Source: Heloderma charlesbogerti (Eukaryota; Chordata; Lepidosauria; Squamata; Helodermatidae). From it: a stretch of DNA of 64,000 nt. The DNA lies in NCBI GenBank assembly GCA_026122225.1, contig JANEZZ010002664.1:1-64000 (forward strand). The letters run 5' to 3'. The translations under genes were made by a program, and so were the position numbers. The stretch's first letter is position 1; each line of letters opens with the position of its first letter. The notes under the pieces are model-generated. The model was not told the origin of the DNA, did no database searches, and was given only the letters and a program-made list of their open reading frames with translations. Below are positions 27,358 through 64,000 of the stretch, piece by piece.

Positions 27358-28480
27358 CTTACGAAAAAAGGGGTTTAGCAGGCACAAAAAACAGAATGAT
27401 GTCAGCGCCTGTATGACATCCAGGGGCAGAGAGAGGGAGCCGGTGCACTGAAGGCTGATCCCAGAGTGGACTCCAGATGGACCACAGATCCACGAGGAAC
27501 CACAAGGAGGGTCTCAGCTAATGACCTCAGTGACCGAGCAGGCTGAGAAGAGGAAAGGCACTTCCTCAGATGTTGGAGACCTTTAGGAAAAGAACTGAAA
27601 ATAAAACTGCTAACGGCGTAAGGCCCTTATGCAAATCTATGCTGCAACCATGCCTGGACGACCGTGAGTTGGATCCAGAGTTAGGTGCGAGTGTAACCCA
27701 CTGGTATAATTTTCTTTAAGAATTCTGAGAGAATATTCTGCACATGCTCAGTAAAGGAGTGAGTTAGAGAGCGGCCAACATTTTAGGAGTTACCAGAACT
27801 CAATGTAGAAGAAGCTTGTTTTCTCCTCCCTGTAAGACCCTGAACCTTAAGACTGGTTAGTAGGGAGGTTTCCTTTTGAAAAAAAGTTTAACAAGTTATG
27901 ATTTTTTTTTACAAACACTATGAGTTCCTTGTTTATTTATGTTCCTCTATATTGTATAAAGGGCCGTTTAACAAAGTTCCTGTGTTGCTGGACCCTGATC
28001 CACCTTGAGAAGATCACTGCAGAGCTGAAGTGAACTACGTAGAAACTTTTCCTTCTTTGGCCAGCAGAAAATCAAGCTTCAAAGAGAAGTTTTATTTATA
28101 TTTTTGTTGTGGACTCAAGCTGGGGGGAAAAACAACAACAGAACTTTGGGGGGGCTGTGCTCTGTTGTATTTTTTTGGTGGGTTATGCATGTAAAATTAT
28201 TACATTTGCATTATCATTGTTTTAATTAAGATATTAAAATATATGTTAACCGTCCCTGAGCAAAGCCTTTGCTGTGAGCCCCTTTGGAGACCCTGAAGAA
28301 AAGTGTTATAGGGGCAACCGGGCTGGTGGAAGTGGTCACCACCCCGCCCCCTCCTACCCATGGCAGCCCCTCCAGCCCTCTGAAAATGCTATACAAAGGG
28401 TCAGGTGACCCTGCTGAGAGGGGTGAGGGGCACTTTCAAATGGGGGCACATTCCGTGAGTGTAGCCCTGGTTGCATGCTC
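27358..28480. other. No recognised feature across palindrome outer region
   Basis: Nothing assignable. The known palindrome edge (27599) falls here with no visible change in sequence character, as expected if the limit is only the window end. Confidence 0.5.
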
Positions 28481-28481
28481 T

Positions 28482-28697
28482 CAAAAAGGATTTTGTAGAG
28501 CTGAAAAAGGTGCAGAAAAGGACTTGCTAAATGATTAAAGGGATGGAGCAGCTCCCCCGTGAGGAAAGGGTACAGCATTTGGGGCTCTTTAGCATAGAGG
28601 AAAAGGTGAGTAAGCAGGGATGTGATAGAGGTGTATAAAATCATGTATGGCATGGAGAAAGTGGATGGGGAGATGTTTTCGCCCTCTCTCAAAATCA
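28482..28697 (+). mobile_element. CR1 LINE fragment (left arm)
   Basis: Plus-strand CR1 C-terminal coding remnant (GTAGAGCTGAAAAAGGTGCA, GTGATAGAGGTGTATAAAAT). It ends at a tRNA-SINE. Twin at 62902-63117. Confidence 0.7.
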
Positions 28698-28950
28698 TAT
28701 TTATTTATTTATTTATTTTATTACATCTATATCCCACCTTTTGTCCTCCTTAAGGAACCCTAGGTGGCATACATAATCCTCCTCCACTCCATTTTAGCCT
28801 CACAACAACAATCCTGTGAGGTAGGCTGGGCTGAGAGTCTGTGACTGGCCCAAAGTCACCCAGTGCGCTTCCATGGCTGAGTGGGGACTAGAACCCGGAT
28901 CTCCCGACTCCCAGTCCAACACTCTCGCCACTACACCACACTGGTTCTCA
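28698..28950 (-). mobile_element. tRNA-derived SINE (left arm)
   Basis: Well-preserved copy. On the minus strand box A is TGGTGTAGTGG and box B GGTTCTAGTCC, and the tail is a TTTATTTATT run at 28698-28722. Twin at 62649-62901. Confidence 0.88.
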
Positions 28951-28954
28951 ACCA

Positions 28955-29553
28955 TTAATAGAAGCATAGCTTCCAAATCCCGGGAAGTACTAGTTCCCCT
29001 CTACTCAGCCTTGGTGAGGCCTCATCTGGAGTACTGTGTCCAGTTCTGGGCACCACATTTTAAGAAGGATGCAGACAAGCTGGAGAGGGTTCAGAGGAGG
29101 GCAACAAAGATGATCAGGGGACTGGAAACAAAGCCCTGTGAGGAGAGACTGAAAGAACTGGGCATGTTTAGCCTGGAGAAGAGAAGACGGGAGAAGAGAA
29201 CATGTAGGGGAGATAGGATAGCGCTGTTCAAGTCCTTGAAAGGTTGTCACAGAGAGGAAGGCCAGGATCTCTTCTCGATCATCCCAGAGTGCAGGACACG
29301 GAATAATGGGCTGAAGTGACAGGAGGCCAGATTCTGGCTGAACATTAGGACAAACATCCTGACTGTTAGAGCAATGTGACAATGGAGCCAATTCCCTGGG
29401 GAGGTGGTGGGCTCTCCCCCACTGGAGGCGTTCAAGACGAGGCTGGACAGCCATCTGTCAGGGATGCTTTGACTTGGACTCCTGCATTGGGCAGGGGATT
29501 GGACTCGATGGCCTTGTAGGCCCTTCCAACCCTACTGTTCTATGATTCTATGA
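28955..29553 (+). mobile_element. CR1 LINE 3' end (left arm)
   Basis: The decayed frame encodes the reverse-transcriptase C-terminus ([32 protein letters not shown]). The element finishes with the CR1 signature TTCTATGATTCTATGA, so the 3' end is complete while the 5' is truncated. Twin at 62046-62644. Confidence 0.88.
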
Positions 29554-29555
29554 AC

Positions 29556-29942
29556 CTGAGCTCATTCCATGAAGCTGATTGATGGGAGATTCAGGACAGA
29601 TCAAAGGAAGTCCTTCTTCACACAGCGCAGAGTTAAACTATGGGATTCACTTCCACAAGATGTAGTGGTGGCCACCAATTTGGAGGGCTTTAAAAGGAGA
29701 TTGGACAAATTTGTGGAGGAGAAGGCTATTGGTGGCTACTAGTCACGATGGCTCTGTGCTACCTCCAGTACCAGAGGCAGTGAGCCTATGTACACCAGTG
29801 GCTGGGGAACATGGGCAGGAGGTGCTGTGGCACTCGTGTCTTGCATGTGGGTTCCCAGCTGACAGCTGGTCGGCCACTGTGTGAACAGAATGCTGGACTA
29901 GATGGAGCCTTGGATCCAGCATGGCTCTCCTTATGTTCTTAC
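29556..29942 (+). mobile_element. CR1 LINE 3' portion, second subfamily (left arm)
   Basis: Continues directly after the previous CR1 with ATGAAGCTGATTGATGGGAG and ends in TGGCTCTCCTTATGTTCTTA. Same subfamily as 26046-26790 on the other strand. Twin at 61657-62043. Confidence 0.78.
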
Positions 29943-29949
29943 GTTATGT

Positions 29950-30250
29950 TCTTCACACAGCACATAGGCAACCTATGGGATTTTCTACCACAAGAAGTAG
30001 TGATGGCCGCCATTTTGGATGGCTTTAAAAGGGAATTAGACAAATTCATGGAGGATGTGGCTATCAGTGGTTGCTGGTCATGATGGCTATATATTACCTC
30101 CAGAATTGGAGGCCTCTGTCCACCCGTTCTGGGGCATACAAGTGGGAGGGTGCTAGTGCGGCCGTGTTGTGCTTGTGAGGCTGTGACATTAGCTACATTT
30201 AATGGCTGCTACATTAAATAGGCCTTTGGTCTGATCCAGCACTGCTCTTT
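29950..30250 (+). mobile_element. CR1 LINE fragment (left arm)
   Basis: Repeats the 3' segment of the preceding copy (CACAAGAAGTAGTGATGGCC, ATTAGACAAATTCATGGAGG) with more divergence, so it is a separate insertion. Twin at 61349-61649. Confidence 0.72.
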
Positions 30251-30429
30251 TTAGCTTCTTAATTATGTTCATCTGGCTGGAAAAGCCTCGGAGACTTAGC
30301 TTGCAGGAAGAAGCTTTAATCAGCTGGTGCCATGCCAGGAATGCTTCCAAAATTCTCCTCAGCTTTTGAAGTTTTGAATTACCTGGTCTTCTTTCACAAC
30401 TGGAACCAATGCATTAGGAATCCTCTGTC

Positions 30430-31455
30430 ATTCTGGGTTGTTGTTTTTTACAGATCACTCTCCAGCGTTCCGTTCCTTTGCATCTTCTTGAGAGATTTCT
30501 TGTACCACATGTGATTCGGCAACATTTTTATGAATGACTTGGAGGAGGAGGTGCAGGGAATGCTGATCAAATTTGCAGAGGACACCAAATTGGGCGGGAG
30601 AGCTAATACTTTGGAAGACAGAAACAGAATTCAAAGTGATCTGGATAGGCTGGAGCGCTGGGCAGAAAACAACAGGATGACATTTAACAGGGATCAATGC
30701 CAAGTTCTGCACCTAGGAAAAAGAAACCAAATGCACAGTTACAAGATGGGGGATACGTGGCTCAACACACTACAAGCGAGAAGGATCTTGGAATTGTTGT
30801 CGAACACAAGCTGAATATGAGCCGACAATGGGATGTGGCTGCAAAAAAGGCCAATGCTGTTTTTGGGCTGCATTAATAGAAGCATAGCTTCCAAATCCCG
30901 TCAAGTACTAGTTCCCCTCTACTCAGCACTGGGTAGGCCTCATCTGGAGTATTGTGTCCAGTTCTGGGCGCCACACTTTAAGAAGGATGCAGACAAGCTG
31001 GAGAGGGTTCAGAGGAGGGCAATGGAGATGATCAGGGGACTGGAAACAAAGCCCTATGAAGAGAGACTGAGAGAACTGGGCATGTTTAGCCTGAGAAGAG
31101 AAGACTGAGGGGAGATATGATAGTGCTCTTCAAGTCCTTGAAAGGTGGTCCCAGAGAGGAAGGCCAGGATCACTTCTCCATCATCCCAGAGTTCAGGACA
31201 CGGAATAATGGGCTCAAGTGACAGGAGGCCAGATTCCGGCTGAACTTCAGGAAAACGTCCTGACTGTTAGAGCAAGATGACAACGGAGCCAATGACCTAG
31301 GGAGGCGGTGGGCTCTCCCACGCTGGAGGCATTCAAGATGAGGCTGGACAGCCACCTGTCAGGGATTCTCTGACCTGGACTCCTTCACTGAGCAGGGGGT
31401 TGGACTCAAGGGTCTTATAGGCCCCCTCCAACCCTACGATTCTGTGATTCTAACT
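30430..31455 (+). mobile_element. CR1 LINE with defective catalytic motif (left arm)
   Basis: About 1 kb of CR1 covering the reverse-transcriptase palm and C-terminus. 30530-30814 reads NDLEEEVQGMLIKFAEDTKL: the usual FADD motif is FAED, replacing one catalytic aspartate. A second frame (30833-31108) holds [19 protein letters not shown]. The 3' end shows ATTCTGTGATTCTA. Twin at 60144-61169. Confidence 0.85.
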
Positions 31456-31774
31456 CATACCAAGTCCATCTAACTCACTATTGCCTACCACAGCTGGTAG
31501 GTTCTCTAAAGCCTTGCCCATGGAAAGGTACTTCCCAGCTCAGCTACCAGGAGATTAACCCTGGAACTTAAAAACAAACAAACATGCGAAGTGTGCGCTG
31601 TAGCCGCTGAACCATGCCCCTTCCCTATCAGTGATTCTGAAGAAGGCTTTTAAAATAGTTTAAGCTCAGCAATCCAAAAGTTTCAAGGCATTAATGCTGA
31701 TTATTAGCATGGCAAAATTCAATATTTTATACATCGTTTTTCTAAGACAGGGTGGGGAACCTCAGCCCAGCGGC

Positions 31775-32095
31775 CAAGCCCAGCCCTTTCGGGTTCCCCG
31801 GGCAGCCACACCCCTTCCCAGGGCCCCACCCCTTTTCCACAATCACTGATCATTAGATGGTTTGCTGGTGTTTGTGCAGTCTTTTTCCCCATTCACAAAT
31901 GCCTCTCCTAAAGATGAGTTACCGGATGGAAGAGCTTTAAGCAATATGCTCGTATTGGTTGGTATGTTTTTTCTTCCAGGGCCCACCCATTTTGCCTCCA
32001 GTCCTGCCCACCACCACTGGGATGCAGCCCCCGAGAGCTCCTCCAAAACAGAATTTGGCCCTGGGGCTGAAAGTCACTCCCACCCCTATGGAAAC
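31775..32095 (+). mobile_element. hAT-like dispersed repeat (left arm)
   Basis: Shares with 34518-34825 the ordered motifs CCACACCCCTT, GCCTCTCCTAAAG, GAGCTTTAAGC, AATATGCT and GAATTTGGCCCTGGGGCTGA. Both copies are on the plus strand. Terminal wording resembles hAT-type elements, but ends are not defined. Twin at 59504-59824. Confidence 0.5.
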
Positions 32096-32199
32096 GTCTG
32101 GCTGGGGAATGCTGGGAGGTGTAGGACTCTTTTCTCTCTAAACACACATAGCATCGCGCGCTTGAAATTGTTTCACAACCCTCTCTTACCAACGCAGCG

Positions 32200-32905
32200 T
32201 CTTTTTCATTCACATTCATTGTCCTTTGCTGCTCTTCCCTCTTCTGCCTGTTTTCTCCCTCGACTATCAAAATAGAGATTGTAAACTCCTTGGGGGCAGA
32301 GACCTGGATGTTTTGTTTTTCACTCACATTCATTGTCCTTTGTCGCTCTTCCCTCATCTCCTATTTTCTCCCCCAACTTTCAAAATAGAGATTGTAAACT
32401 CCTTGGGGGCAGAGAACTGGGTGTTTTGTTTTTCACTCACATTCATTGTCCTTTGTCACTCTTCCCTCATCTCCTATTTTCTCCTCCAGCTATCAAAATA
32501 GAGATTGTAAACTCCTTGGGAAGAGACCTGGATGTTTTGTTTTTGTTTTTCACTCACATTCATTGTCCTTTGTCGCTCTTCCCTCGTCTACTTTTTTCGC
32601 TCCCAGCTATCAAAATAGAGATTGTAAACTCCTTGGGGGCAGAGAACTGGGTGTTTTGTTTTTCACTCACATTCATTGTCCTTTGTCACTCTTCCCTCAT
32701 CTCCTATTTTCTCCTCCAGCTATCAAAATAGAGATTGTAAACTCCTTGGGGGCAGAGAAGTGGGTGTTTTGTTTTTGTTTCTCACTCACATTCATCGTCC
32801 TTTCCTGCTGTTCCTTCTTTGGCCTATTTTCTCTCCTGGCTATCAAAACAGAAATTGTAAACTCCTTGGGGGCAGAGACCTGGGTGTTTTGGTTTTGGTT
32901 TTAAC
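32200..32905 (+). repeat. 113-bp tandem array, 6 copies (left arm)
   Basis: GTAAACTCCTTGGG recurs at 32281, 32394, 32507, 32624, 32737 and 32857, giving periods of 113, 113, 117, 113 and 120. Units carry CACTCACATTCATTGTCC and an AATAGAGATTGTAAACTCC motif. The units run through all reading frames, so the repeated peptides are not evidence of coding. Twin at 58694-59399. Confidence 0.94.
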
Positions 32906-33539
32906 ATATCCTAAGTTCCGTGTACATTGATAATGTGACCCATACTAAAACAGCCTCCCTTGATTTCCCAGAAACAAAAAAGATGGGAGAATTAGAAAGG
33001 CAGGAAATTAGAAAGGCATCCTGAATATTCCCAAGCTTATGATCTACTCACTGCTATATTTGACAGGAGAATCTCTAAATCATTCCCTTGACAGTTGTGC
33101 TGGCCACTCTTAGACTGTAATTAAACCATCCTTCATACAGCCCCGAAGGAGCTGTCAGCTCTCGACCATCTCCCAGCAGCCACTAATCCGATCCGGCTAG
33201 ACACACAGAACCCTTCCTGCGGAGTTTTCACAGGATGGAGGGGACACCGCAGTACGAATCGGAGGATCGGCAACAGGCAACCCAAGGGCCAAATTTGGCC
33301 CTGTGAAATCGTAAAACTATACGCAATCCCACCCCCGTAGAATGATGGCAACACGGAGTTGGGGGGATCTTTGCAGGCCAGGGGTGTTGAAACTCCTGTC
33401 TGGGGGCCAAGTCTGTCCCTCTGTGGTTCCCCATGTGGCTGCCAATTTGTTTCCGAGCAAAATATTTCCAAGCAAAAAGTTTAAAACTTTGTTGGGATTT
33501 GTCTTTTTAAAAATGTTTTAACTTTTTTAACTCTTTTAA

Positions 33540-33645
33540 CCATCGTTTCATTCTTATCATGTTGTTCACCGCTCCGAAATCTTCTGTTGAGGAGCGGTAT
33601 ATAAATATTGTAAATAAATAAATAATAAATAAAAATATAAAGCGC
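33540..33645 (+). mobile_element. LINE 3' tail fragment (left arm)
   Basis: ATGTTGTTCACCGCTCCGAA, GAGCGGTATATAAATATTG and a TAAATAAATAA tail are the last about 100 bases of a CR1/L3-type element. Twin at 57954-58059. Confidence 0.65.
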
Positions 33646-33654
33646 TGGTTCTTA

Positions 33655-34513
33655 CCGTGAAGGCCTTACATGGTCTAGGTCCAAGGTACCTTAGGGAGCG
33701 CCTTCTCCCTTGCGTCCCAGTCCGCCGCCTCAGGTCCTCTGAGGGCTCTCTGGTGCGGCTGCCTCATGCGAGACTGGCAGCCACATGCAAAAGAACCTTT
33801 TCCTTAGCCGCCCCTCAGTTGTGGAACAACCTGCCGGTTGAAATTTTATTTATTTATTTATTAAATTTATTAATCGCCCATCTGGCCTGTCACCCAGCCA
33901 CTCTGGGCGATGTACAAAGTGTTTAAAACAGTTTAAAACAATACAATTCTACAGTAAAAACATCATATTTCTAAAAATACCCTAACCCACCCCAAATGCT
34001 TGCCTGAACAACCACATTTTTAATGCGTGGCGGAAGCTGATTAAAGAGGGGGCATGGCGGAGTTCCCTAGGGAGGGAGTTCCACAGAGTGGGGGCCACCA
34101 CAGAGAAGGCCCTCTCCCTCGTCCCCACCAGTCTAGCTGTCCTGGCTGATGGGACAGAGAGAAATGCGCCTGTGGATCTCGTTGAAGGTTTTAAAGCAGG
34201 CATTCACGACGCTGTTATTCCAGCAGGCCTTCCCTTTCAAGAACTCTCGCTCCTTTTGCTGACTCTCGCATACTGTTTTTAAGCTGTGTTGTTTTAAGCT
34301 GTGTTGTTGTATTGTTGTATTTTTATTTTTGTTGTTGTTAAATTGTTTTTGGTTCAAAGTTGTTTTTAGTTATATGTTGTTGGTATATATTGTCCATATG
34401 CTTTCATGTAAATGGCTTTTAAAGTTTGTATACTGTATTTTAAAGTTTTAACTTTCGTAAACCCTCCAGAGGGCTTTGGTTATGGGGTGGTATAGAAATG
34501 TAATTTTTTTTTT
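33655..34513 (+). mobile_element. CR1/L3-type LINE 3' portion, split by a nested LINE (left arm)
   Basis: 33655-33842 encodes the C-terminal block (MKALHGLGPRYLRERLLPC, LWNNLPVEI). The frame resumes at 34187 with KQAFTTLLFQQAF and a 3' UTR ending near 34513 (GGTGGTATAGAAATGTAA). The missing piece is an insertion at 33843-34180. Twin at 57086-57944. Confidence 0.8.
33843..34180 (-). mobile_element. CR1/L3-type LINE tail nested in another L3 (left arm)
   Basis: Minus strand, with a C-terminal frame (VVAPTLWNSLPRELRHAPSL, FRQAFGVG) and a TTTATT tail at 33847-33865. It is flanked by GTTGAA at 33837-33842 and 34181-34186, consistent with a short target duplication. Same subfamily as 18222-19080. 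Twin at 57419-57756. Confidence 0.82.
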
Positions 34514-34517
34514 AAAA

Positions 34518-34825
34518 ATGGCCACACCCCCTTCTTCTGAGCATGCCCCCTTCTCCTGACCACACCCCTTTCCCCAACTGCCAATCATTTCATGGTTTTC
34601 AAGCTTTTGTGCTCCCCCCCCTGCACTTCTCAAAGGTTGAAATGCCTCTCCTAAGGCTGAGTTGCTGACAGCACGAGCTTTAAGCTATAATATGCTGGTC
34701 GTTTTGTATTTGGGGGGCCTACCTTTTTTTGACCCTGGCCCCTCCCACCTCTGGAATACAGCCCCCAACAGCTTCTCCAAGACTGAGTTCGGCCGTCAGG
34801 CTAAAAGAGGTTCAATGCCCCTCTA
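34518..34825 (+). mobile_element. hAT-like dispersed repeat, second copy (left arm)
   Basis: Second copy of the family at 31775-32095 (CCACACCCCTTTCC, GCCTCTCCTAAGG, CCAAGACTGAGTTCGGCC). Twin at 56774-57081. Confidence 0.5.
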
Positions 34826-35025
34826 GTCATCAAGTCCAGCCCCCAACCCGACACAAGAAAACCAGAGAATCCCCAACAGATGACTGATCAGGGTCAGCTA
34901 GAAGACCACTAGCACAGAACACCACCCCCACCACCCCGCTCTAGGCAACCGGTGCTATTGTTGAACTGCTCTTACCATCAAGACATTTCTCCTAATGTCC
35001 AGCCGAAGTCTGCCCACCTGTAACC

Positions 35026-35175
35026 AGTGGAGGCTGGTGGCTCCTATTTCGGTGGGGCTGTGAATGCATTTTGGATTTTTGTCAGAAGCAGCCTGAACTC
35101 TAAAGGAGCTTTCCAAGGTGCTGAACCTATTTGGGGGATAGGGTTCAGCATCTCAGATAGCTCCTTTAATGAATA
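35026..35175. mobile_element. Foldback MITE, right end lost (left arm)
   Basis: Starts CAGTGGAGGCTGGTGGCTCC and includes the AAAGGAGCTTTCC stem, but stops after GATAGCTCCTTTAA without its inverted terminus. Twin at 56424-56573. Confidence 0.7.
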
Positions 35176-35245
35176 AAGCGTGACAAGGTGCATTTTGGAG
35201 GAAATTGGAACTTTTTTACATGTGCGAATTTGCGCAAATGCGCAA

Positions 35246-36237
35246 GAGGGACGGGGGGAGCGCGACCCTGTTGATTCTCCTGGACCTCTCAGCGGCTTTC
35301 GATACCATCGACCGCGGTGTCCTTCTGGATAGGTTGTCTGGGCTGAGAGTTGGAGGCTCTGCGCTGCAGTGGTTCCGCTCCTGCTTGGATGGCCGATTCC
35401 AGAAGGTGGTGCTGGGGGATTACTGCTCTGTGCCATGGCAATTGTGCCATGGGGTTCCACAGGGCTCTTTTTTATCCCCTATGCTGTTTAACATCTACAT
35501 GAAACCGCTGGGGGAGGTTATCCGGAGGTGTGGGCTGAGGTGCCATCAATATGCGGATGACACCCAGCGCTACCTCTCTTTCTCATCAAAACCAGGCGAG
35601 GCAGTGGCTGTTCTGAATCAGGGCCTGGGCATGGTAATGGACCGGATGAGGGCTAATAAACTGAGACTCAATCCAGACAAGATGGAGGCACTGTTAGCAG
35701 GTGGTTCATCTGCCCAGCTAGGTGATATGCAACCTGTTCTGGAGGGGGTTGCACTCCCCCTAAAGGATCAGGTTCGTAGTTTGGGGGTGCTCTTGGACCC
35801 AGAACTGTCACTTGAGGCACAGGTGAACTCAGTGGCACGGAGCACTTTTTATCTGCTTAGGCTGATATACCAACTACGCCCTTCTCTGGACAGAGATAGC
35901 CTAGCTACAGTTATCCATGCTCTGATAACTTCTCGTCTGGATTACTGCAGTGCGTTTTACGTGGGGCTGCCTTTGAAAACGGTCCGGAAACTTCAGCTGG
36001 TTAACAAGATTGTTAACAGGGACTGGCCTGCGAGCTCATATTACGCCAGTACTTTTCCAGCTGCACTGGCTGCCAGTCCATTTCCAGGCCCGATTCAAAG
36101 TGCTGGTGTTCACATGCAAAGCCCTTAACGGCTTGGGGCCAGGTTACCTGAAGGATCGCCTCCTCCCATATGTGCCTGCCCGGACCTTAAGATCTTCGTC
36201 AGCGGTCTTTCTCCGTGAGCCCCTGCCAAAGGAAGTG
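35246..36237 (+). pseudogene. Truncated L3-type reverse transcriptase (left arm)
   Basis: Both ends are missing. The frame includes ATLLILLDLSAAFDTIDRG, GVPQGSFLSPMLFNIYMKPL and the catalytic YADD at 35550-35561, so the active site is intact while the endonuclease and the last about 60 residues are absent. Near 36015-36030 the frame shifts: the conserved C-terminal block (TPVLFQLHWLPVHFQARFK) continues one frame over. The same shift occurs in the L3 at 42297-45510. Twin at 55362-56353. Confidence 0.88.
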
Positions 36238-37085
36238 ACCCATGGGCTGGGTTTGGGGTTCTTGCGCTTACCTACAAGCTAGCCGAGGTTGTACAATTAC
36301 CTCTCTGGCAGGCAGCAGCCTCCTTGGCTTCCCACACTTCAATTGATTTCATATGGTGGCAGCGAGGAATGTACAGACTGCGTAAACTCCATCTGTGTTT
36401 CTTTTTTTCTTTTTTTTAATACTTTTTATTCTATTTTTTTTATCTTTATAAATGAAATAAACAATACCAACAACCTAATCAATAACTACAATTTCCCAAC
36501 AATACAATATTCTTAGAAGGACACAGCAATAACAAAAGAGGAAAAGGGAAAGGGAAAAAAGAGAAAGAAAAAACCTTGGCAATATTACAATTCAATACAG
36601 TATAAATAATCAACCTTACATTTCAATATCATATCATCAGTCTTATAGCAAGGAAGCAGGCCTATAATTCATTTCCAGTAACCATATATTTCCCTTCAGC
36701 TAACATATAATATTAAAGCTTAACAATTTAACCAGCCAAAAATCTTACTAACCAATAATGACAGTGATAATAATAAAAAAGAAAGGAGATTTAAAAGGAT
36801 TAATAATAATACTAACAATAAACTCTGTCTGTATTTCAAGGATTGTCAGGTGCCTTTTGTTCCATCGCCCATTCACAGACAGATGCTGTTTTTTTCATCA
36901 TGCGGAAAAATACGCAAATAATTACGTATGAGGTTTCGTAACAATTTACGTAATTTACCTTAGTACATAACATTTAGCATATTGTCCCCCATTCCATTCA
37001 ACCTTTCCTAAGCAGAAAAAACTTGTGTATTTTCCTACAAGTAAATATGAATACATTTCAGCAAAGTAAAAAAAAAAAAATCATC
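36238..37085. other. AT-rich stretch, unassigned (left arm)
   Basis: Contains AATAATAATACTAACAATAA-like low-complexity DNA and a segment at 36900-36960 rich in TACGCAAATAATTACGTA-type palindromes. Twin at 54514-55361. Confidence 0.45.
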
Positions 37086-37202
37086 CAAAAGTCCACGGAC
37101 TCCAGGCGGCCTGAGGGGGTTGCTCTGCAGAAGATTCCACAGGCTGGATTCTTAGAAATCCGAGCTCATTTTAGTCCCTCTTGAATTTCTCCAGCATCCC
37201 TA
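37086..37202. mobile_element. hAT MITE right-end fragment (left arm)
   Basis: TCCACGGACTCCAGG at the left and CAGCATCCCTAG at the right match the right half of the TAGGGATG family. Twin at 54397-54513. Confidence 0.55.
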
Positions 37203-38059
37203 GTGGTGGCCTTCCCTCTCTTCCCCCCAAATGCCCCGGAACGATGCTAGGCATGGGACATTGCGAAGGATGTCAAAGGTGGGCCAGGCTGCTGATGCAG
37301 CTGCTGCTGTTGCCACTTGTGATGGCAGAGCAACACCCCCCCCAAAAAAAAACTGCCCAGGAAAGGAGAAACAAGCTGTGCTACTGCCAACGGTGAGCCC
37401 CACCTGGGAGAAACTCTTGGAGAATTTCTCTTCCCCCTGGATCAGTGAAATTGCTCCCACAGTTTCTCTGCACGCAAAGAAGGCGGAGAATTTTGAGAGG
37501 CCGTTTGTGCACAATTCTAATGAAGACCCATTAGCTTGGCCAAAGACCTGCTCCTGGTGGAGATGAAAACGGCTAGACTTGGTTAGTTGATATGGATCTG
37601 CACAGCTTCCTGCATTTTTGGAGACGCATTGGGGGTGTGGCTGTGGAGACTGTCACGATGTGTGCCTGCCTGTGCTTCCAGATTTACCACCACAGCCCTG
37701 CTTCGAGGACCCAAAGAATGCAATCCTGTCTCCCTGCAGTCATTCCACGCCTGCTTAAACATACCCAGTTCCTTCCACCTTTCCACACAGCACTTCTTTT
37801 GACCATCTTCTTGGCCGTCCTTCTCCCATCAGCCCCAGGCAGGGTGGCTAACAATCAGGGAAGATGGGATTTGTAGTCCAAAGCATCTGGAAGGCGCCAG
37901 ATTGATGACGGCTGTTTGGTGGGCTTCTATATCCGTCTGGGGGCTTCTTTTCATCTCTTCCACACTTCAGTGGGCAGGGGGCGGGGGGACTGAGAAAGTG
38001 GCAAAGATATTTTTGCCAGTGCAAGCACAGTCACGCACGCGCACACACAGCATGTCTAA
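37203..38059. other. No gene recognised (left arm)
   Basis: Includes a palindromic-MITE fragment near 37835-37905 (GGGATTTGTAGTCCAAAGC). Nothing else is assignable. Twin at 53540-54396. Confidence 0.45.
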
Positions 38060-52024: not shown

Positions 52025-52056
<32 letters not shown>

Positions 52057-52118: not shown

Positions 52119-52309
52119 ACATTTAGGCTTATTAAATGCCATTTCATTGTTTCCCAGCCTGGCTTTTCATTCTGTCAATATCCCTCTGGGCATTTGCTAA
52201 GGAGGCTCGTGCGTGATGAGCTCACGGTTTCCCACCACCAGTCCCTCCACGCTAGAGGAGGCCTCGGTCTCTTTTATATCAGTGAACAAAGAAAAAGTGG
52301 CCTGTAGCA
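52119..52309. promoter_or_regulatory. Candidate conserved non-coding element, second block (right arm)
   Basis: Inverted twin of 39290-39480. Confidence 0.33.
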
Positions 52310-52958: not shown

Positions 52959-53539
52959 AAAGCTTGAGAAGGTACATTGCCTTGGCGGATTTTCCGGTTA
53001 TTAAAGTTGATGACTCGGCGGTTATTAAAGCTGATTGCTTTTCGAGTATTAAAAGCAGGCACGATTTAATTAATAAATAAATGTTCAATGAATAATCGAA
53101 TGCACCGTCGCTTTTGTCTGCTTGACTTCGTACTGAGCCCTATTCCTGTTACGTAGGCATAGAAGGGCTCTGAATGTCTGAAGTCACTGGAAGGCCGGTG
53201 ATTTGCCTGCCTCGCAGCGGTATTATTTCTCATCGCCGCCCCGATGTGCCGTGTCCTGAAATTGCTAGCCTGACAGCAGGATCTGCATTACGTCCAATTT
53301 TTGTCCGGCTCCTCCTGATTTAAGGTTCCTTACTATCAAATTAACGTCGTCATCTATACGGCGATGCCTTTTTTTGCCAGAGCATCTCTTCTTCCTTCCG
53401 GCAGGTGCCCACTGGGCCTCAGGCCGGAGCCATTTATCTCAATTTGACCCACCGTGCTCTTGTGCTCGAGATGTCACACAATTCAATTACAAGATGGATG
53501 GAGATGGAGCAGGAAGGAAGCGAGCGCTGCAGTGAGCGA
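52959..53539. promoter_or_regulatory. Candidate conserved non-coding element (right arm)
   Basis: Inverted twin of 38060-38640. The two CGGTTATTAAAG motifs fall at 52995-53006 and 53019-53030. Confidence 0.4.
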
Positions 53540-54396
53540 TTAGACATGCTGTGTGTGCGCGTGCGTGACTGTGCTTGCACTGGCAAAAATATCTTTGCCA
53601 CTTTCTCAGTCCCCCCGCCCCCTGCCCACTGAAGTGTGGAAGAGATGAAAAGAAGCCCCCAGACGGATATAGAAGCCCACCAAACAGCCGTCATCAATCT
53701 GGCGCCTTCCAGATGCTTTGGACTACAAATCCCATCTTCCCTGATTGTTAGCCACCCTGCCTGGGGCTGATGGGAGAAGGACGGCCAAGAAGATGGTCAA
53801 AAGAAGTGCTGTGTGGAAAGGTGGAAGGAACTGGGTATGTTTAAGCAGGCGTGGAATGACTGCAGGGAGACAGGATTGCATTCTTTGGGTCCTCGAAGCA
53901 GGGCTGTGGTGGTAAATCTGGAAGCACAGGCAGGCACACATCGTGACAGTCTCCACAGCCACACCCCCAATGCGTCTCCAAAAATGCAGGAAGCTGTGCA
54001 GATCCATATCAACTAACCAAGTCTAGCCGTTTTCATCTCCACCAGGAGCAGGTCTTTGGCCAAGCTAATGGGTCTTCATTAGAATTGTGCACAAACGGCC
54101 TCTCAAAATTCTCCGCCTTCTTTGCGTGCAGAGAAACTGTGGGAGCAATTTCACTGATCCAGGGGGAAGAGAAATTCTCCAAGAGTTTCTCCCAGGTGGG
54201 GCTCACCGTTGGCAGTAGCACAGCTTGTTTCTCCTTTCCTGGGCAGTTTTTTTTTGGGGGGGGTGTTGCTCTGCCATCACAAGTGGCAACAGCAGCAGCT
54301 GCATCAGCAGCCTGGCCCACCTTTGACATCCTTCGCAATGTCCCATGCCTAGCATCGTTCCGGGGCATTTGGGGGGAAGAGAGGGAAGGCCACCAC

Positions 54397-54513
54397 TAGG
54401 GATGCTGGAGAAATTCAAGAGGGACTAAAATGAGCTCGGATTTCTAAGAATCCAGCCTGTGGAATCTTCTGCAGAGCAACCCCCTCAGGCCGCCTGGAGT
54501 CCGTGGACTTTTG
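54397..54513. mobile_element. hAT MITE fragment (right arm)
   Basis: Inverted twin of 37086-37202. Confidence 0.55.
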
Positions 54514-55361
54514 GATGATTTTTTTTTTTTTACTTTGCTGAAATGTATTCATATTTACTTGTAGGAAAATACACAAGTTTTTTCTGCTTAGGAAAGGTTG
54601 AATGGAATGGGGGACAATATGCTAAATGTTATGTACTAAGGTAAATTACGTAAATTGTTACGAAACCTCATACGTAATTATTTGCGTATTTTTCCGCATG
54701 ATGAAAAAAACAGCATCTGTCTGTGAATGGGCGATGGAACAAAAGGCACCTGACAATCCTTGAAATACAGACAGAGTTTATTGTTAGTATTATTATTAAT
54801 CCTTTTAAATCTCCTTTCTTTTTTATTATTATCACTGTCATTATTGGTTAGTAAGATTTTTGGCTGGTTAAATTGTTAAGCTTTAATATTATATGTTAGC
54901 TGAAGGGAAATATATGGTTACTGGAAATGAATTATAGGCCTGCTTCCTTGCTATAAGACTGATGATATGATATTGAAATGTAAGGTTGATTATTTATACT
55001 GTATTGAATTGTAATATTGCCAAGGTTTTTTCTTTCTCTTTTTTCCCTTTCCCTTTTCCTCTTTTGTTATTGCTGTGTCCTTCTAAGAATATTGTATTGT
55101 TGGGAAATTGTAGTTATTGATTAGGTTGTTGGTATTGTTTATTTCATTTATAAAGATAAAAAAAATAGAATAAAAAGTATTAAAAAAAAGAAAAAAAGAA
55201 ACACAGATGGAGTTTACGCAGTCTGTACATTCCTCGCTGCCACCATATGAAATCAATTGAAGTGTGGGAAGCCAAGGAGGCTGCTGCCTGCCAGAGAGGT
55301 AATTGTACAACCTCGGCTAGCTTGTAGGTAAGCGCAAGAACCCCAAACCCAGCCCATGGGT

Positions 55362-56353
55362 CACTTCCTTTGGCAGGGGCTCACGGAGAAAGACCGCTGA
55401 CGAAGATCTTAAGGTCCGGGCAGGCACATATGGGAGGAGGCGATCCTTCAGGTAACCTGGCCCCAAGCCGTTAAGGGCTTTGCATGTGAACACCAGCACT
55501 TTGAATCGGGCCTGGAAATGGACTGGCAGCCAGTGCAGCTGGAAAAGTACTGGCGTAATATGAGCTCGCAGGCCAGTCCCTGTTAACAATCTTGTTAACC
55601 AGCTGAAGTTTCCGGACCGTTTTCAAAGGCAGCCCCACGTAAAACGCACTGCAGTAATCCAGACGAGAAGTTATCAGAGCATGGATAACTGTAGCTAGGC
55701 TATCTCTGTCCAGAGAAGGGCGTAGTTGGTATATCAGCCTAAGCAGATAAAAAGTGCTCCGTGCCACTGAGTTCACCTGTGCCTCAAGTGACAGTTCTGG
55801 GTCCAAGAGCACCCCCAAACTACGAACCTGATCCTTTAGGGGGAGTGCAACCCCCTCCAGAACAGGTTGCATATCACCTAGCTGGGCAGATGAACCACCT
55901 GCTAACAGTGCCTCCATCTTGTCTGGATTGAGTCTCAGTTTATTAGCCCTCATCCGGTCCATTACCATGCCCAGGCCCTGATTCAGAACAGCCACTGCCT
56001 CGCCTGGTTTTGATGAGAAAGAGAGGTAGCGCTGGGTGTCATCCGCATATTGATGGCACCTCAGCCCACACCTCCGGATAACCTCCCCCAGCGGTTTCAT
56101 GTAGATGTTAAACAGCATAGGGGATAAAAAAGAGCCCTGTGGAACCCCATGGCACAATTGCCATGGCACAGAGCAGTAATCCCCCAGCACCACCTTCTGG
56201 AATCGGCCATCCAAGCAGGAGCGGAACCACTGCAGCGCAGAGCCTCCAACTCTCAGCCCAGACAACCTATCCAGAAGGACACCGCGGTCGATGGTATCGA
56301 AAGCCGCTGAGAGGTCCAGGAGAATCAACAGGGTCGCGCTCCCCCCGTCCCTC
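55362..56353 (-). pseudogene. Truncated L3-type reverse transcriptase (right arm)
   Basis: Inverted twin of 35246-36237; YADD at 56038-56049. Confidence 0.88.
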
Positions 56354-56423
56354 TTGCGCATTTGCGCAAATTCGCACATGTAAAAAAGTTCCAATTTCCT
56401 CCAAAATGCACCTTGTCACGCTT

Positions 56424-56573
56424 TATTCATTAAAGGAGCTATCTGAGATGCTGAACCCTATCCCCCAAATAGGTTCAGCACCTTGGAAAGCTCCTTTAGA
56501 GTTCAGGCTGCTTCTGACAAAAATCCAAAATGCATTCACAGCCCCACCGAAATAGGAGCCACCAGCCTCCACT
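56424..56573. mobile_element. Foldback MITE fragment (right arm)
   Basis: Inverted twin of 35026-35175. Confidence 0.7.
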
Positions 56574-56773
56574 GGTTACAGGTGGGCAGACTTCGGCTGG
56601 ACATTAGGAGAAATGTCTTGATGGTAAGAGCAGTTCAACAATAGCACCGGTTGCCTAGAGCGGGGTGGTGGGGGTGGTGTTCTGTGCTAGTGGTCTTCTA
56701 GCTGACCCTGATCAGTCATCTGTTGGGGATTCTCTGGTTTTCTTGTGTCGGGTTGGGGGCTGGACTTGATGAC

Positions 56774-57081
56774 TAGAGGGGCATTGAACCTCTTTTAGCC
56801 TGACGGCCGAACTCAGTCTTGGAGAAGCTGTTGGGGGCTGTATTCCAGAGGTGGGAGGGGCCAGGGTCAAAAAAAGGTAGGCCCCCCAAATACAAAACGA
56901 CCAGCATATTATAGCTTAAAGCTCGTGCTGTCAGCAACTCAGCCTTAGGAGAGGCATTTCAACCTTTGAGAAGTGCAGGGGGGGGAGCACAAAAGCTTGA
57001 AAACCATGAAATGATTGGCAGTTGGGGAAAGGGGTGTGGTCAGGAGAAGGGGGCATGCTCAGAAGAAGGGGGTGTGGCCAT
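56774..57081 (-). mobile_element. hAT-like dispersed repeat (right arm)
   Basis: Inverted twin of 34518-34825. Confidence 0.5.
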
Positions 57082-57085
57082 TTTT

Positions 57086-57944
57086 AAAAAAAAAATTACA
57101 TTTCTATACCACCCCATAACCAAAGCCCTCTGGAGGGTTTACGAAAGTTAAAACTTTAAAATACAGTATACAAACTTTAAAAGCCATTTACATGAAAGCA
57201 TATGGACAATATATACCAACAACATATAACTAAAAACAACTTTGAACCAAAAACAATTTAACAACAACAAAAATAAAAATACAACAATACAACAACACAG
57301 CTTAAAACAACACAGCTTAAAAACAGTATGCGAGAGTCAGCAAAAGGAGCGAGAGTTCTTGAAAGGGAAGGCCTGCTGGAATAACAGCGTCGTGAATGCC
57401 TGCTTTAAAACCTTCAACGAGATCCACAGGCGCATTTCTCTCTGTCCCATCAGCCAGGACAGCTAGACTGGTGGGGACGAGGGAGAGGGCCTTCTCTGTG
57501 GTGGCCCCCACTCTGTGGAACTCCCTCCCTAGGGAACTCCGCCATGCCCCCTCTTTAATCAGCTTCCGCCACGCATTAAAAATGTGGTTGTTCAGGCAAG
57601 CATTTGGGGTGGGTTAGGGTATTTTTAGAAATATGATGTTTTTACTGTAGAATTGTATTGTTTTAAACTGTTTTAAACACTTTGTACATCGCCCAGAGTG
57701 GCTGGGTGACAGGCCAGATGGGCGATTAATAAATTTAATAAATAAATAAATAAAATTTCAACCGGCAGGTTGTTCCACAACTGAGGGGCGGCTAAGGAAA
57801 AGGTTCTTTTGCATGTGGCTGCCAGTCTCGCATGAGGCAGCCGCACCAGAGAGCCCTCAGAGGACCTGAGGCGGCGGACTGGGACGCAAGGGAGAAGGCG
57901 CTCCCTAAGGTACCTTGGACCTAGACCATGTAAGGCCTTCACGG
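57086..57944 (-). mobile_element. L3-type LINE split by nested LINE (right arm)
   Basis: Inverted twin of 33655-34513. The nested element occupies 57419-57756 on the plus strand, flanked by TTCAAC on both sides. Confidence 0.8.
57419..57756 (+). mobile_element. Nested L3-type LINE tail (right arm)
   Basis: Inverted twin of 33843-34180. Confidence 0.82.
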
Positions 57945-57953
57945 TAAGAACCA

Positions 57954-58059
57954 GCGCTTTATATTTTTATTTATTATTTATTTATTTACAATATTTATAT
58001 ACCGCTCCTCAACAGAAGATTTCGGAGCGGTGAACAACATGATAAGAATGAAACGATGG
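57954..58059 (-). mobile_element. LINE 3' tail fragment (right arm)
   Basis: Inverted twin of 33540-33645. Confidence 0.65.
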
Positions 58060-58693
58060 TTAAAAGAGTTAAAAAAGTTAAAACATTTTTAAAAAGACAA
58101 ATCCCAACAAAGTTTTAAACTTTTTGCTTGGAAATATTTTGCTCGGAAACAAATTGGCAGCCACATGGGGAACCACAGAGGGACAGACTTGGCCCCCAGA
58201 CAGGAGTTTCAACACCCCTGGCCTGCAAAGATCCCCCCAACTCCGTGTTGCCATCATTCTACGGGGGTGGGATTGCGTATAGTTTTACGATTTCACAGGG
58301 CCAAATTTGGCCCTTGGGTTGCCTGTTGCCGATCCTCCGATTCGTACTGCGGTGTCCCCTCCATCCTGTGAAAACTCCGCAGGAAGGGTTCTGTGTGTCT
58401 AGCCGGATCGGATTAGTGGCTGCTGGGAGATGGTCGAGAGCTGACAGCTCCTTCGGGGCTGTATGAAGGATGGTTTAATTACAGTCTAAGAGTGGCCAGC
58501 ACAACTGTCAAGGGAATGATTTAGAGATTCTCCTGTCAAATATAGCAGTGAGTAGATCATAAGCTTGGGAATATTCAGGATGCCTTTCTAATTTCCTGCC
58601 TTTCTAATTCTCCCATCTTTTTTGTTTCTGGGAAATCAAGGGAGGCTGTTTTAGTATGGGTCACATTATCAATGTACACGGAACTTAGGATAT

Positions 58694-59399
58694 GTTAAAA
58701 CCAAAACCAAAACACCCAGGTCTCTGCCCCCAAGGAGTTTACAATTTCTGTTTTGATAGCCAGGAGAGAAAATAGGCCAAAGAAGGAACAGCAGGAAAGG
58801 ACGATGAATGTGAGTGAGAAACAAAAACAAAACACCCACTTCTCTGCCCCCAAGGAGTTTACAATCTCTATTTTGATAGCTGGAGGAGAAAATAGGAGAT
58901 GAGGGAAGAGTGACAAAGGACAATGAATGTGAGTGAAAAACAAAACACCCAGTTCTCTGCCCCCAAGGAGTTTACAATCTCTATTTTGATAGCTGGGAGC
59001 GAAAAAAGTAGACGAGGGAAGAGCGACAAAGGACAATGAATGTGAGTGAAAAACAAAAACAAAACATCCAGGTCTCTTCCCAAGGAGTTTACAATCTCTA
59101 TTTTGATAGCTGGAGGAGAAAATAGGAGATGAGGGAAGAGTGACAAAGGACAATGAATGTGAGTGAAAAACAAAACACCCAGTTCTCTGCCCCCAAGGAG
59201 TTTACAATCTCTATTTTGAAAGTTGGGGGAGAAAATAGGAGATGAGGGAAGAGCGACAAAGGACAATGAATGTGAGTGAAAAACAAAACATCCAGGTCTC
59301 TGCCCCCAAGGAGTTTACAATCTCTATTTTGATAGTCGAGGGAGAAAACAGGCAGAAGAGGGAAGAGCAGCAAAGGACAATGAATGTGAATGAAAAAGA
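58694..59399 (-). repeat. 113-bp tandem array (right arm)
   Basis: Inverted twin of 32200-32905. Unit number and each unit's private indel are preserved. Confidence 0.94.
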
Positions 59400-59503
59400 C
59401 GCTGCGTTGGTAAGAGAGGGTTGTGAAACAATTTCAAGCGCGCGATGCTATGTGTGTTTAGAGAGAAAAGAGTCCTACACCTCCCAGCATTCCCCAGCCA
59501 GAC

Positions 59504-59824
59504 GTTTCCATAGGGGTGGGAGTGACTTTCAGCCCCAGGGCCAAATTCTGTTTTGGAGGAGCTCTCGGGGGCTGCATCCCAGTGGTGGTGGGCAGGACTG
59601 GAGGCAAAATGGGTGGGCCCTGGAAGAAAAAACATACCAACCAATACGAGCATATTGCTTAAAGCTCTTCCATCCGGTAACTCATCTTTAGGAGAGGCAT
59701 TTGTGAATGGGGAAAAAGACTGCACAAACACCAGCAAACCATCTAATGATCAGTGATTGTGGAAAAGGGGTGGGGCCCTGGGAAGGGGTGTGGCTGCCCG
59801 GGGAACCCGAAAGGGCTGGGCTTG
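59504..59824 (-). mobile_element. hAT-like dispersed repeat (right arm)
   Basis: Inverted twin of 31775-32095. Confidence 0.5.
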
Positions 59825-60143
59825 GCCGCTGGGCTGAGGTTCCCCACCCTGTCTTAGAAAAACGATGTATAAAATATTGAATTTTGCCATGCTAATAATC
59901 AGCATTAATGCCTTGAAACTTTTGGATTGCTGAGCTTAAACTATTTTAAAAGCCTTCTTCAGAATCACTGATAGGGAAGGGGCATGGTTCAGCGGCTACA
60001 GCGCACACTTCGCATGTTTGTTTGTTTTTAAGTTCCAGGGTTAATCTCCTGGTAGCTGAGCTGGGAAGTACCTTTCCATGGGCAAGGCTTTAGAGAACCT
60101 ACCAGCTGTGGTAGGCAATAGTGAGTTAGATGGACTTGGTATG

Positions 60144-61169
60144 AGTTAGAATCACAGAATCGTAGGGTTGGAGGGGGCCTATAAGACCCTTGAGTCCAAC
60201 CCCCTGCTCAGTGAAGGAGTCCAGGTCAGAGAATCCCTGACAGGTGGCTGTCCAGCCTCATCTTGAATGCCTCCAGCGTGGGAGAGCCCACCGCCTCCCT
60301 AGGTCATTGGCTCCGTTGTCATCTTGCTCTAACAGTCAGGACGTTTTCCTGAAGTTCAGCCGGAATCTGGCCTCCTGTCACTTGAGCCCATTATTCCGTG
60401 TCCTGAACTCTGGGATGATGGAGAAGTGATCCTGGCCTTCCTCTCTGGGACCACCTTTCAAGGACTTGAAGAGCACTATCATATCTCCCCTCAGTCTTCT
60501 CTTCTCAGGCTAAACATGCCCAGTTCTCTCAGTCTCTCTTCATAGGGCTTTGTTTCCAGTCCCCTGATCATCTCCATTGCCCTCCTCTGAACCCTCTCCA
60601 GCTTGTCTGCATCCTTCTTAAAGTGTGGCGCCCAGAACTGGACACAATACTCCAGATGAGGCCTACCCAGTGCTGAGTAGAGGGGAACTAGTACTTGACG
60701 GGATTTGGAAGCTATGCTTCTATTAATGCAGCCCAAAAACAGCATTGGCCTTTTTTGCAGCCACATCCCATTGTCGGCTCATATTCAGCTTGTGTTCGAC
60801 AACAATTCCAAGATCCTTCTCGCTTGTAGTGTGTTGAGCCACGTATCCCCCATCTTGTAACTGTGCATTTGGTTTCTTTTTCCTAGGTGCAGAACTTGGC
60901 ATTGATCCCTGTTAAATGTCATCCTGTTGTTTTCTGCCCAGCGCTCCAGCCTATCCAGATCACTTTGAATTCTGTTTCTGTCTTCCAAAGTATTAGCTCT
61001 CCCGCCCAATTTGGTGTCCTCTGCAAATTTGATCAGCATTCCCTGCACCTCCTCCTCCAAGTCATTCATAAAAATGTTGCCGAATCACATGTGGTACAAG
61101 AAATCTCTCAAGAAGATGCAAAGGAACGGAACGCTGGAGAGTGATCTGTAAAAAACAACAACCCAGAAT
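60144..61169 (-). mobile_element. CR1 LINE with FAED motif (right arm)
   Basis: Inverted twin of 30430-31455, including the same catalytic substitution. Confidence 0.85.
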
Positions 61170-61348
61170 GACAGAGGATTCCTAATGCATTGGTTCCAGT
61201 TGTGAAAGAAGACCAGGTAATTCAAAACTTCAAAAGCTGAGGAGAATTTTGGAAGCATTCCTGGCATGGCACCAGCTGATTAAAGCTTCTTCCTGCAAGC
61301 TAAGTCTCCGAGGCTTTTCCAGCCAGATGAACATAATTAAGAAGCTAA

Positions 61349-61649
61349 AAAGAGCAGTGCTGGATCAGACCAAAGGCCTATTTAATGTAGCAGCCATTAA
61401 ATGTAGCTAATGTCACAGCCTCACAAGCACAACACGGCCGCACTAGCACCCTCCCACTTGTATGCCCCAGAACGGGTGGACAGAGGCCTCCAATTCTGGA
61501 GGTAATATATAGCCATCATGACCAGCAACCACTGATAGCCACATCCTCCATGAATTTGTCTAATTCCCTTTTAAAGCCATCCAAAATGGCGGCCATCACT
61601 ACTTCTTGTGGTAGAAAATCCCATAGGTTGCCTATGTGCTGTGTGAAGA
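61349..61649 (-). mobile_element. CR1 LINE fragment (right arm)
   Basis: Inverted twin of 29950-30250. Confidence 0.72.
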
Positions 61650-61656
61650 ACATAAC

Positions 61657-62043
61657 GTAAGAACATAAGGAGAGCCATGCTGGATCCAAGGCTCCATCTA
61701 GTCCAGCATTCTGTTCACACAGTGGCCGACCAGCTGTCAGCTGGGAACCCACATGCAAGACACGAGTGCCACAGCACCTCCTGCCCATGTTCCCCAGCCA
61801 CTGGTGTACATAGGCTCACTGCCTCTGGTACTGGAGGTAGCACAGAGCCATCGTGACTAGTAGCCACCAATAGCCTTCTCCTCCACAAATTTGTCCAATC
61901 TCCTTTTAAAGCCCTCCAAATTGGTGGCCACCACTACATCTTGTGGAAGTGAATCCCATAGTTTAACTCTGCGCTGTGTGAAGAAGGACTTCCTTTGATC
62001 TGTCCTGAATCTCCCATCAATCAGCTTCATGGAATGAGCTCAG
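61657..62043 (-). mobile_element. CR1 LINE 3' portion (right arm)
   Basis: Inverted twin of 29556-29942. Confidence 0.78.
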
Positions 62044-62045
62044 GT

Positions 62046-62644
62046 TCATAGAATCATAGAACAGTAGGGTTGGAAGGGCCTACAAGGCCATCGAGTCCAA
62101 TCCCCTGCCCAATGCAGGAGTCCAAGTCAAAGCATCCCTGACAGATGGCTGTCCAGCCTCGTCTTGAACGCCTCCAGTGGGGGAGAGCCCACCACCTCCC
62201 CAGGGAATTGGCTCCATTGTCACATTGCTCTAACAGTCAGGATGTTTGTCCTAATGTTCAGCCAGAATCTGGCCTCCTGTCACTTCAGCCCATTATTCCG
62301 TGTCCTGCACTCTGGGATGATCGAGAAGAGATCCTGGCCTTCCTCTCTGTGACAACCTTTCAAGGACTTGAACAGCGCTATCCTATCTCCCCTACATGTT
62401 CTCTTCTCCCGTCTTCTCTTCTCCAGGCTAAACATGCCCAGTTCTTTCAGTCTCTCCTCACAGGGCTTTGTTTCCAGTCCCCTGATCATCTTTGTTGCCC
62501 TCCTCTGAACCCTCTCCAGCTTGTCTGCATCCTTCTTAAAATGTGGTGCCCAGAACTGGACACAGTACTCCAGATGAGGCCTCACCAAGGCTGAGTAGAG
62601 GGGAACTAGTACTTCCCGGGATTTGGAAGCTATGCTTCTATTAA
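62046..62644 (-). mobile_element. CR1 LINE 3' end (right arm)
   Basis: Inverted twin of 28955-29553. Confidence 0.88.
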
Positions 62645-62648
62645 TGGT

Positions 62649-62901
62649 TGAGAACCAGTGTGGTGTAGTGGCGAGAGTGTTGGACTGGGAGTCGGGAGAT
62701 CCGGGTTCTAGTCCCCACTCAGCCATGGAAGCGCACTGGGTGACTTTGGGCCAGTCACAGACTCTCAGCCCAGCCTACCTCACAGGATTGTTGTTGTGAG
62801 GCTAAAATGGAGTGGAGGAGGATTATGTATGCCACCTAGGGTTCCTTAAGGAGGACAAAAGGTGGGATATAGATGTAATAAAATAAATAAATAAATAAAT
62901 A
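62649..62901 (+). mobile_element. tRNA-derived SINE (right arm)
   Basis: Inverted twin of 28698-28950. Here the pol III promoter reads directly on the plus strand: box A TGGTGTAGTGG at 62661-62671 and box B GGTTCTAGTCC at 62704-62714. The tail is AATAAATAAATAAATAAAT. Confidence 0.88.
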
Positions 62902-63117
62902 TGATTTTGAGAGAGGGCGAAAACATCTCCCCATCCACTTTCTCCATGCCATACATGATTTTATACACCTCTATCACATCCCTGCTTACTCACCTTTTCC
63001 TCTATGCTAAAGAGCCCCAAATGCTGTACCCTTTCCTCACGGGGGAGCTGCTCCATCCCTTTAATCATTTAGCAAGTCCTTTTCTGCACCTTTTTCAGCT
63101 CTACAAAATCCTTTTTG
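62902..63117 (-). mobile_element. CR1 LINE fragment (right arm)
   Basis: Inverted twin of 28482-28697. Confidence 0.7.
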
Positions 63118-64000
63118 AGAGCATGCAACCAGGGCTACACTCACGGAATGTGCCCCCATTTGAAAGTGCCCCTCACCCCTCTCAGCAGGGTCACCTGACC
63201 CTTTGTATAGCATTTTCAGAGGGCTGGAGGGGCTGCCATGGGTAGGAGGGGGCGGGGTGGTGACCACTTCCACCAGCCCGGTTGCCCCTATAACACTTTT
63301 CTTCAGGGTCTCCAAAGGGGCTCACAGCAAAGGCTTTGCTCAGGGACGGTTAACATATATTTTAATATCTTAATTAAAACAATGATAATGCAAATGTAAT
63401 AATTTTACATGCATAACCCACCAAAAAAATACAACAGAGCACAGCCCCCCCAAAGTTCTGTTGTTGTTTTTCCCCCCAGCTTGAGTCCACAACAAAAATA
63501 TAAATAAAACTTCTCTTTGAAGCTTGATTTTCTGCTGGCCAAAGAAGGAAAAGTTTCTACGTAGTTCACTTCAGCTCTGCAGTGATCTTCTCAAGGTGGA
63601 TCAGGGTCCAGCAACACAGGAACTTTGTTAAACGGCCCTTTATACAATATAGAGGAACATAAATAAACAAGGAACTCATAGTGTTTGTAAAAAAAAATCA
63701 TAACTTGTTAAACTTTTTTTCAAAAGGAAACCTCCCTACTAACCAGTCTTAAGGTTCAGGGTCTTACAGGGAGGAGAAAACAAGCTTCTTCTACATTGAG
63801 TTCTGGTAACTCCTAAAATGTTGGCCGCTCTCTAACTCACTCCTTTACTGAGCATGTGCAGAATATTCTCTCAGAATTCTTAAAGAAAATTATACCAGTG
63901 GGTTACACTCGCACCTAACTCTGGATCCAACTCACGGTCGTCCAGGCATGGTTGCAGCATAGATTTGCATAAGGGCCTTACGCCGTTAGCAGTTTTATTT
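63118..64000. other. No recognised feature, palindrome outer region (right arm)
   Basis: Inverted twin of 27599-28481. No transition out of the palindrome is seen before the window ends. Confidence 0.5.

Follow-up and report, generated by a model that had tools for sequence, protein, structure and literature searches.

Does the start of contig JANEZZ010002664.1 in the Heloderma charlesbogerti assembly GCA_026122225.1 hold a real chromosomal palindrome, or a single locus that has been written twice? The stretch analysed (the window) comprises bases 1–64,000 of this contig, here called C2433, which is 436,776 bp long. The assembly amounts to 2,302,168,690 bases in 3,246 contigs, and this is the space covered by the whole-assembly searches described below. 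Our results support with high confidence that the palindrome is a hairpin-mediated fold-back artefact at a contig end rather than a real chromosome structure. An earlier note on this DNA left the choice between an inverted duplication of very recent date and an error of assembly. Assembly error is now favoured and duplication disfavoured because the arm ends at the contig start, two arm probes match in full only C2433, and four other contigs carry a similar structure.

When each position x is compared without gaps to position 91599-x, the arms 27599–45799 and 45800–64000 are perfect reverse complements of 18,201 bp each, with 0 mismatches in 18,201 pairs (x = 27599 to 45799) about an axis at 45799/45800 with a spacer of zero. 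The earlier note had described arms of at least 18.2 kb without visible difference, an inverted twin of every feature at 91599-x and no spacer at the axis. The twin relationship holds for every x in this range, and the comparison of the window with its own reverse complement that the note proposed reveals neither a mismatch nor an overlooked spacer. The second-longest spacerless arm within the window is only 24 bp and lies inside an (AT)n run, which rules out a chance origin. The true arms are longer still, at about 45.8 kb. The window cuts the palindrome short so that only 27599–45799 of the left arm has its mirror inside it. Extending the comparison through the next 40 kb places the whole palindrome at C2433 bases 1–91,596, and all of window 1–45799 is therefore left arm. 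On the contig, the left arm measures 45,799 bp and the right arm 45,797 bp, with 0 substitutions and one 2-bp gap located in an (AT)n run at approximately 2804–2852 and 88748–88793. The outer end of the left arm is exactly contig base 1. The features that define the structure are as follows, where LINE denotes a long interspersed nuclear element.

1–45799, plus strand: whole left arm, by mirror alignment to contig 45800–91596
45800–64000, minus strand: window part of the right arm, which extends to contig base 91,596, the contig continuing onward to 436,776
2804–2852, no strand: (AT)n run, sole difference between the arms, the right arm being 2 bp shorter
42544–45799, minus strand: LINE with endonuclease and reverse transcriptase frames, its 5' region holding the axis, mirrored at 45800–49055
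45780–45819, no strand: natural perfect palindrome of 40 bp, centred on the axis within the LINE 5' region and recognised from six fetched LINE copies

High arm identity raises the possibility of a long-lived functional palindrome whose arms are kept alike through gene conversion, as happens on sex chromosomes. Being a large inverted repeat with highly similar arms, the structure does resemble the ampliconic palindromes of ape sex chromosomes (PMC11168930). As described in that source, however, ape palindromes are frequently separated by a spacer, have an identity of at least 98% by definition and bear genes, whereas here the spacer is zero and no host gene was seen in seven scanned frames. 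The domain scan returned a match for four of the seven, in every case to LINE endonuclease or reverse transcriptase, and no host-gene domain was found in any of them, intron-split genes not being sought. Identity between the arms is also complete enough to leave even a pure (AAG)22 run without any difference. A functional palindrome is consequently highly improbable, and the comparison with sex-chromosome palindromes drawn in the earlier note gains no support.

The position of the axis provides the first indication of how the structure arose. The central 40 bp consist of CCAAGTGCGACGCTAAGTGC followed by its reverse complement, and this 40-mer is retained with 0–2 mismatches in all six fetched LINE copies (L003–L008, best matches). 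Two of these, L006 and L007, lie in opposite orientation in the axis alignment and were read separately by script. All six continue past the 40-mer into different, non-mirrored sequence. As the 40-bp palindrome is present in other LINE copies, the fold adds only sequence outside those 40 bp, which refines the earlier description of a spacerless centre, the central 40 bp being a pre-existing LINE palindrome. The unfolded form of the axis has 554 matches with at most 2 mismatches in the assembly (272 and 282 on the two strands). A few places may have been read on both strands and C2433 is possibly included, which makes 554 an approximate copy number; the 100 matches listed are all exact. Spacerless palindromes of non-simple sequence whose arms reach at least 20 bp are rare, with 2 in 170,466 fetched bases (each counted once), one of which is the LINE 40-mer itself. 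For an axis placed at random, the probability of coinciding with the centre of such a palindrome is approximately 1.2e-5, which ties the fold to the hairpin. The palindrome at 45780–45819 is therefore likely the hairpin where the fold happened. A recurrent LINE-side fold at the same 40-mer was considered and not seen. The folded LINE-side 46-mer has 196 places with at most 2 mismatches in the assembly; of these it is exact only at C2433, and 9 places with one mismatch are one-sided only. For symmetric variants with 2 mismatches the negative covers the 50 places listed, and a fold on the opposite side was not searched for.

The LINE at the axis, which we take to be of an L2/CR1-like class, carries PF03372 and PF00078 (Pfam) on its mirrored frames. 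For the endonuclease frame beside the axis, the top protein match comes from Varanus komodoensis at 70% identity, and the next named matches are from Varanus, Hemicordylus and Rhineura, so these LINE relatives are squamate. No relatives were found in the viral contigs searched. Within each arm, one LINE is also present as two opposite copies that are 95.9% identical, located in the window at 35245–36238 and 42687–43680.

A fold-back at this hairpin suggests the following sequence of events. A DNA molecule would end or break at the 40-bp hairpin that the LINE naturally carries in its 5' region, and both strands would be joined or copied via the hairpin such that a long read first follows one strand and then returns on its complement. 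During assembly the fold, or a graph link derived from it, would then be accepted as an extension of the contig, and the same locus would be rewritten in reverse until the read or unitig is exhausted, which corresponds to contig base 1. In this model the true chromosome would run from the LINE into sequence that is absent from C2433. We infer that the fold stems from library preparation or assembly and not from the animal, and likewise the step that wrote the second arm. Three features of a fold-back artefact written into an assembly are found here: one half is the direct reverse complement of the other, the outer end coincides with the contig end, and unrelated loci are affected.

Such artefacts are known from published data. 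Fold-backs are reported for approximately 0.55–0.6% of Oxford Nanopore Technologies (ONT) genomic reads, with more than 11 bp between the halves in typically less than half of artefact reads, and they can tangle assembly graphs (PMC12870357). Inverted-repeat reads make up 0.18–7.33% of ligation-based data sets (PMC13141652), and palindromes occur in 0.5% of unamplified Pacific Biosciences (PacBio) reads (PMC6218980). The latter source also describes a published gorilla Y assembly, produced from amplified DNA, that contains false inverted duplications. The C2433 structure shares with the artefacts and false duplications described in these three sources an immediate reverse complement that is often spacerless, an occurrence at several unrelated loci, and a position at a contig end. 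It differs in being known from a finished contig alone, with arms in this assembly reaching 78.7 kb, and in having its axis on a natural short hairpin, a link not found in the parts of PMC12870357, PMC13141652 and PMC6218980 that were consulted.

Hairpins can also seed genuine duplications. If the inverted duplication were real and had arisen in the germline very recently, replication stalling or a break at the LINE hairpin would have left a hairpin-capped end. Once replicated, this end would have become a spacerless palindrome whose arms extend for at least 45.8 kb, and the assembler would have broken at the branch that separates the two flanks. The hairpin at the axis agrees with this route, as does the coincidence of contig end and arm end, which fits a graph branch. 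Yeast does form palindromes through hairpins (PMC7999016, PMC10766183), and hairpin-capped ends there yield large palindromes (PMC7999016). Together with human examples (PMC3907307), these yeast systems share with C2433 a fold at a pre-existing short inverted repeat and arms that are identical beyond that repeat. In contrast, C2433 has no spacer and its arm stops at the contig end. Among sequenced junctions of human germline inverted duplications, 21 of 21 are reported to carry a single-copy spacer of 766–70,466 bp (PMC3907307), which is absent here. Long perfect palindromes are described as fragile (PMC7999016), and a survey of 118,019 genomes, of which 487 were eukaryotic, reports that perfect arms thousands of bp long are almost confined to bacteria, the longest human perfect arms being 140 bp (PMC13155455). 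Zero substitutions in 18,201 bp would moreover limit the age of the duplication to less than about 82,000 years at an assumed rate of 1e-9 per site per year.

A real palindrome might also be expected to join a second flank. Across the assembly, a probe from the arm (38000–39500) is matched over its full length at two places and no others, and these are the two copies within C2433; a probe from the arm end (1–2000) gives the same result. No second outer flank was thus found in whole-assembly searches with these two probes. Its absence is suggestive of an artefact but not decisive, as the assembly may be incomplete and only two pieces of the arm were searched. Taken with the four further contigs of this assembly that are built in a similar way, described below, these observations make a germline duplication improbable.

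The recurrence of the structure tips the balance more than any other single fact. A mirrored contig can be recognised by a dispersed repeat that matches it twice, once on each strand, with equal scores. With C2433 set aside, two repeat searches listed 39 long matches, spread over 37 contigs, and 38 strong ones, spread over 36, together 72 distinct contigs, and mirrored equal-score pairs were found on three of the 72 (C2620, C1121 and C2657). A further close opposite-strand pair, on C1672, was present among the 100 listed of the 554 unfolded-form matches. All four contigs are palindromic at the predicted axis, which lies at 78,856 in C2620, 69,372 in C1121, 76,480 in C2657 and 41,176 in C1672 and is spacerless or nearly so. 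In C2620 the arms span 78.7 kb, and the one difference in their 78,656 aligned bases is a 1-bp indel located 10 bp away from the axis. For C1121, C2657 and C1672 the comparison covered 800-bp stretches at the axis (approximately 400 bp per side) and short outer-end pieces, and the three are symmetric over 759–801 aligned columns. Differences lie at 37 bp from the axis in C1121, at 0 and 180 bp in C2657 and at 0.5–52.5 bp in C1672, so that in the fetched stretches of the four contigs all arm differences fall within 180 bp of the axis. The arm of C1672 extends to contig base 1, with 150 of 150 bases in agreement, that of C2657 stops 109 bp short of the contig end, and that of C2620 stops at base 201, 200 bp from the contig end. 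In the four contigs whose outer end was seen, C2433 included, arms measure approximately 41–79 kb. Six wider opposite-strand pairs among the listed unfolded-form matches, each on a single contig and 145 kb to 3 Mb apart (C167, C779, C908, C1018, C1746 and C1850), were counted neither way.

The unmatched ends of two of these contigs have an unusual composition. Bases 1–150 of C1121 contain 1.3% C and the last 109 bp of C2657 contain 0.9% G, while stretches with at most 2% of either G or C account for 0 of 852 in the window at 150 bp and 0.17% of 1,184 at 109 bp. The two skewed ends look like raw read-end noise. Noise-like ends were rejected as a general sign of fold-back, being present in only two of the five contigs; base composition is ordinary in the unmatched 200 bp of C2620 and at the ends of C2433 and C1672. 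Near the axis of both C1121 and C2657 an inverted-repeat element of TTTACGTAG type is apparent by eye, like a 42-bp palindrome at window position 7054. Elsewhere in the assembly the starts of C3003 (1–6288) and C310 (1–6288) are exact reverse complements over 6,288 bp, from which it follows that these contigs overlap and were left unjoined.

The number of affected contigs also bears on whether a palindrome arose somatically or in cell culture in the sampled tissue, through breakage-fusion-bridge cycles or extrachromosomal amplification. Sister-chromatid fusion (U-type exchange) predicts the absence of a spacer (PMC3907307), in agreement with the zero spacer here. A clonal event would more likely affect few loci and raise their copy number, whereas five contigs are hit, and we regard a somatic origin as very hard to sustain. 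The five contigs might alternatively all be real, in which case transposable element hairpins would serve as germline fold-back points that gave rise to exact spacerless palindromes with arms of 40–80 kb at many loci, too recently for substitutions to have accumulated. We give this little credence.

Several observations weigh against a fold-back artefact. The outer end of the C1121 palindrome was not found, the first 400 bases of this contig mismatching their mirror place, and the axis motif of C2620 has no second copy within 3 mismatches. A pre-existing hairpin is evidenced from other copies for C2433 only. A hairpin at the axis is equally predicted by hairpin-mediated duplication in vivo (PMC7999016), and where the graph branches at the end of an arm a real palindrome could also end the contig. 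The PacBio HiFi sample described in PMC12870357 has virtually no fold-backs, so an artefact assumes ONT or older PacBio data. A single read that wrote the whole fold would be long, approximately 92 kb for C2433 and 157 kb for C2620, although a graph walk that uses one unitig twice would remove the need for very long reads. Finally, no adapter was detected at the axis, as six adapter sequences scored no higher than the maximum of 60 random stretches. An adapter left at the axis is rejected on these background scores and on the 21-mer adjoining the axis, which has no exact match in IMG/VR or GTDB contigs, although only some fold-back artefacts retain an adapter and none needs to. A chance 23-base phage match, entered twice, was found, and no plasmid match. 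These viral, genome and plasmid collections represent bacteria, archaea, their viruses and plasmids, where an unfolded lizard locus is not expected.

The remainder of the window is rich in other repeats. A nearly full LINE split over three frames occupies 23165–25951 and is of the BovB/RTE type, BovB being the name we presume to apply. Its relatives include lizards, cattle and their kin, and others are filed under Staphylococcus aureus and Sinisalibacter, possibly as vertebrate contamination. On the minus strand, 14420–14596 gives a match resembling 5S ribosomal RNA (66.9 bits), followed by a tail that resembles repeats at 29473–29554 and 41580–41662. This is probably a 5S-derived short interspersed nuclear element (SINE) with a LINE tail, for which a literature search found no SINE name. 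Minisatellites are present at 3154–3495 (unit 70 bp) and 14699–15148 (unit 89 bp), and at 32202–32896 (unit 113 bp) and 40514–40767 (unit 30–92 bp), the latter two being mirrored within the window.

As an artefact, the palindrome means that one 45.8-kb locus of the Heloderma charlesbogerti genome is written twice at the start of C2433, the second time reversed. Since no fewer than four further contigs show this kind of structure, any counts of repeats or genes and any inversion calls made on this assembly need screening. That the fold lies on a hairpin natural to a transposon points to places where similar errors may arise in other genomes rich in repeats.

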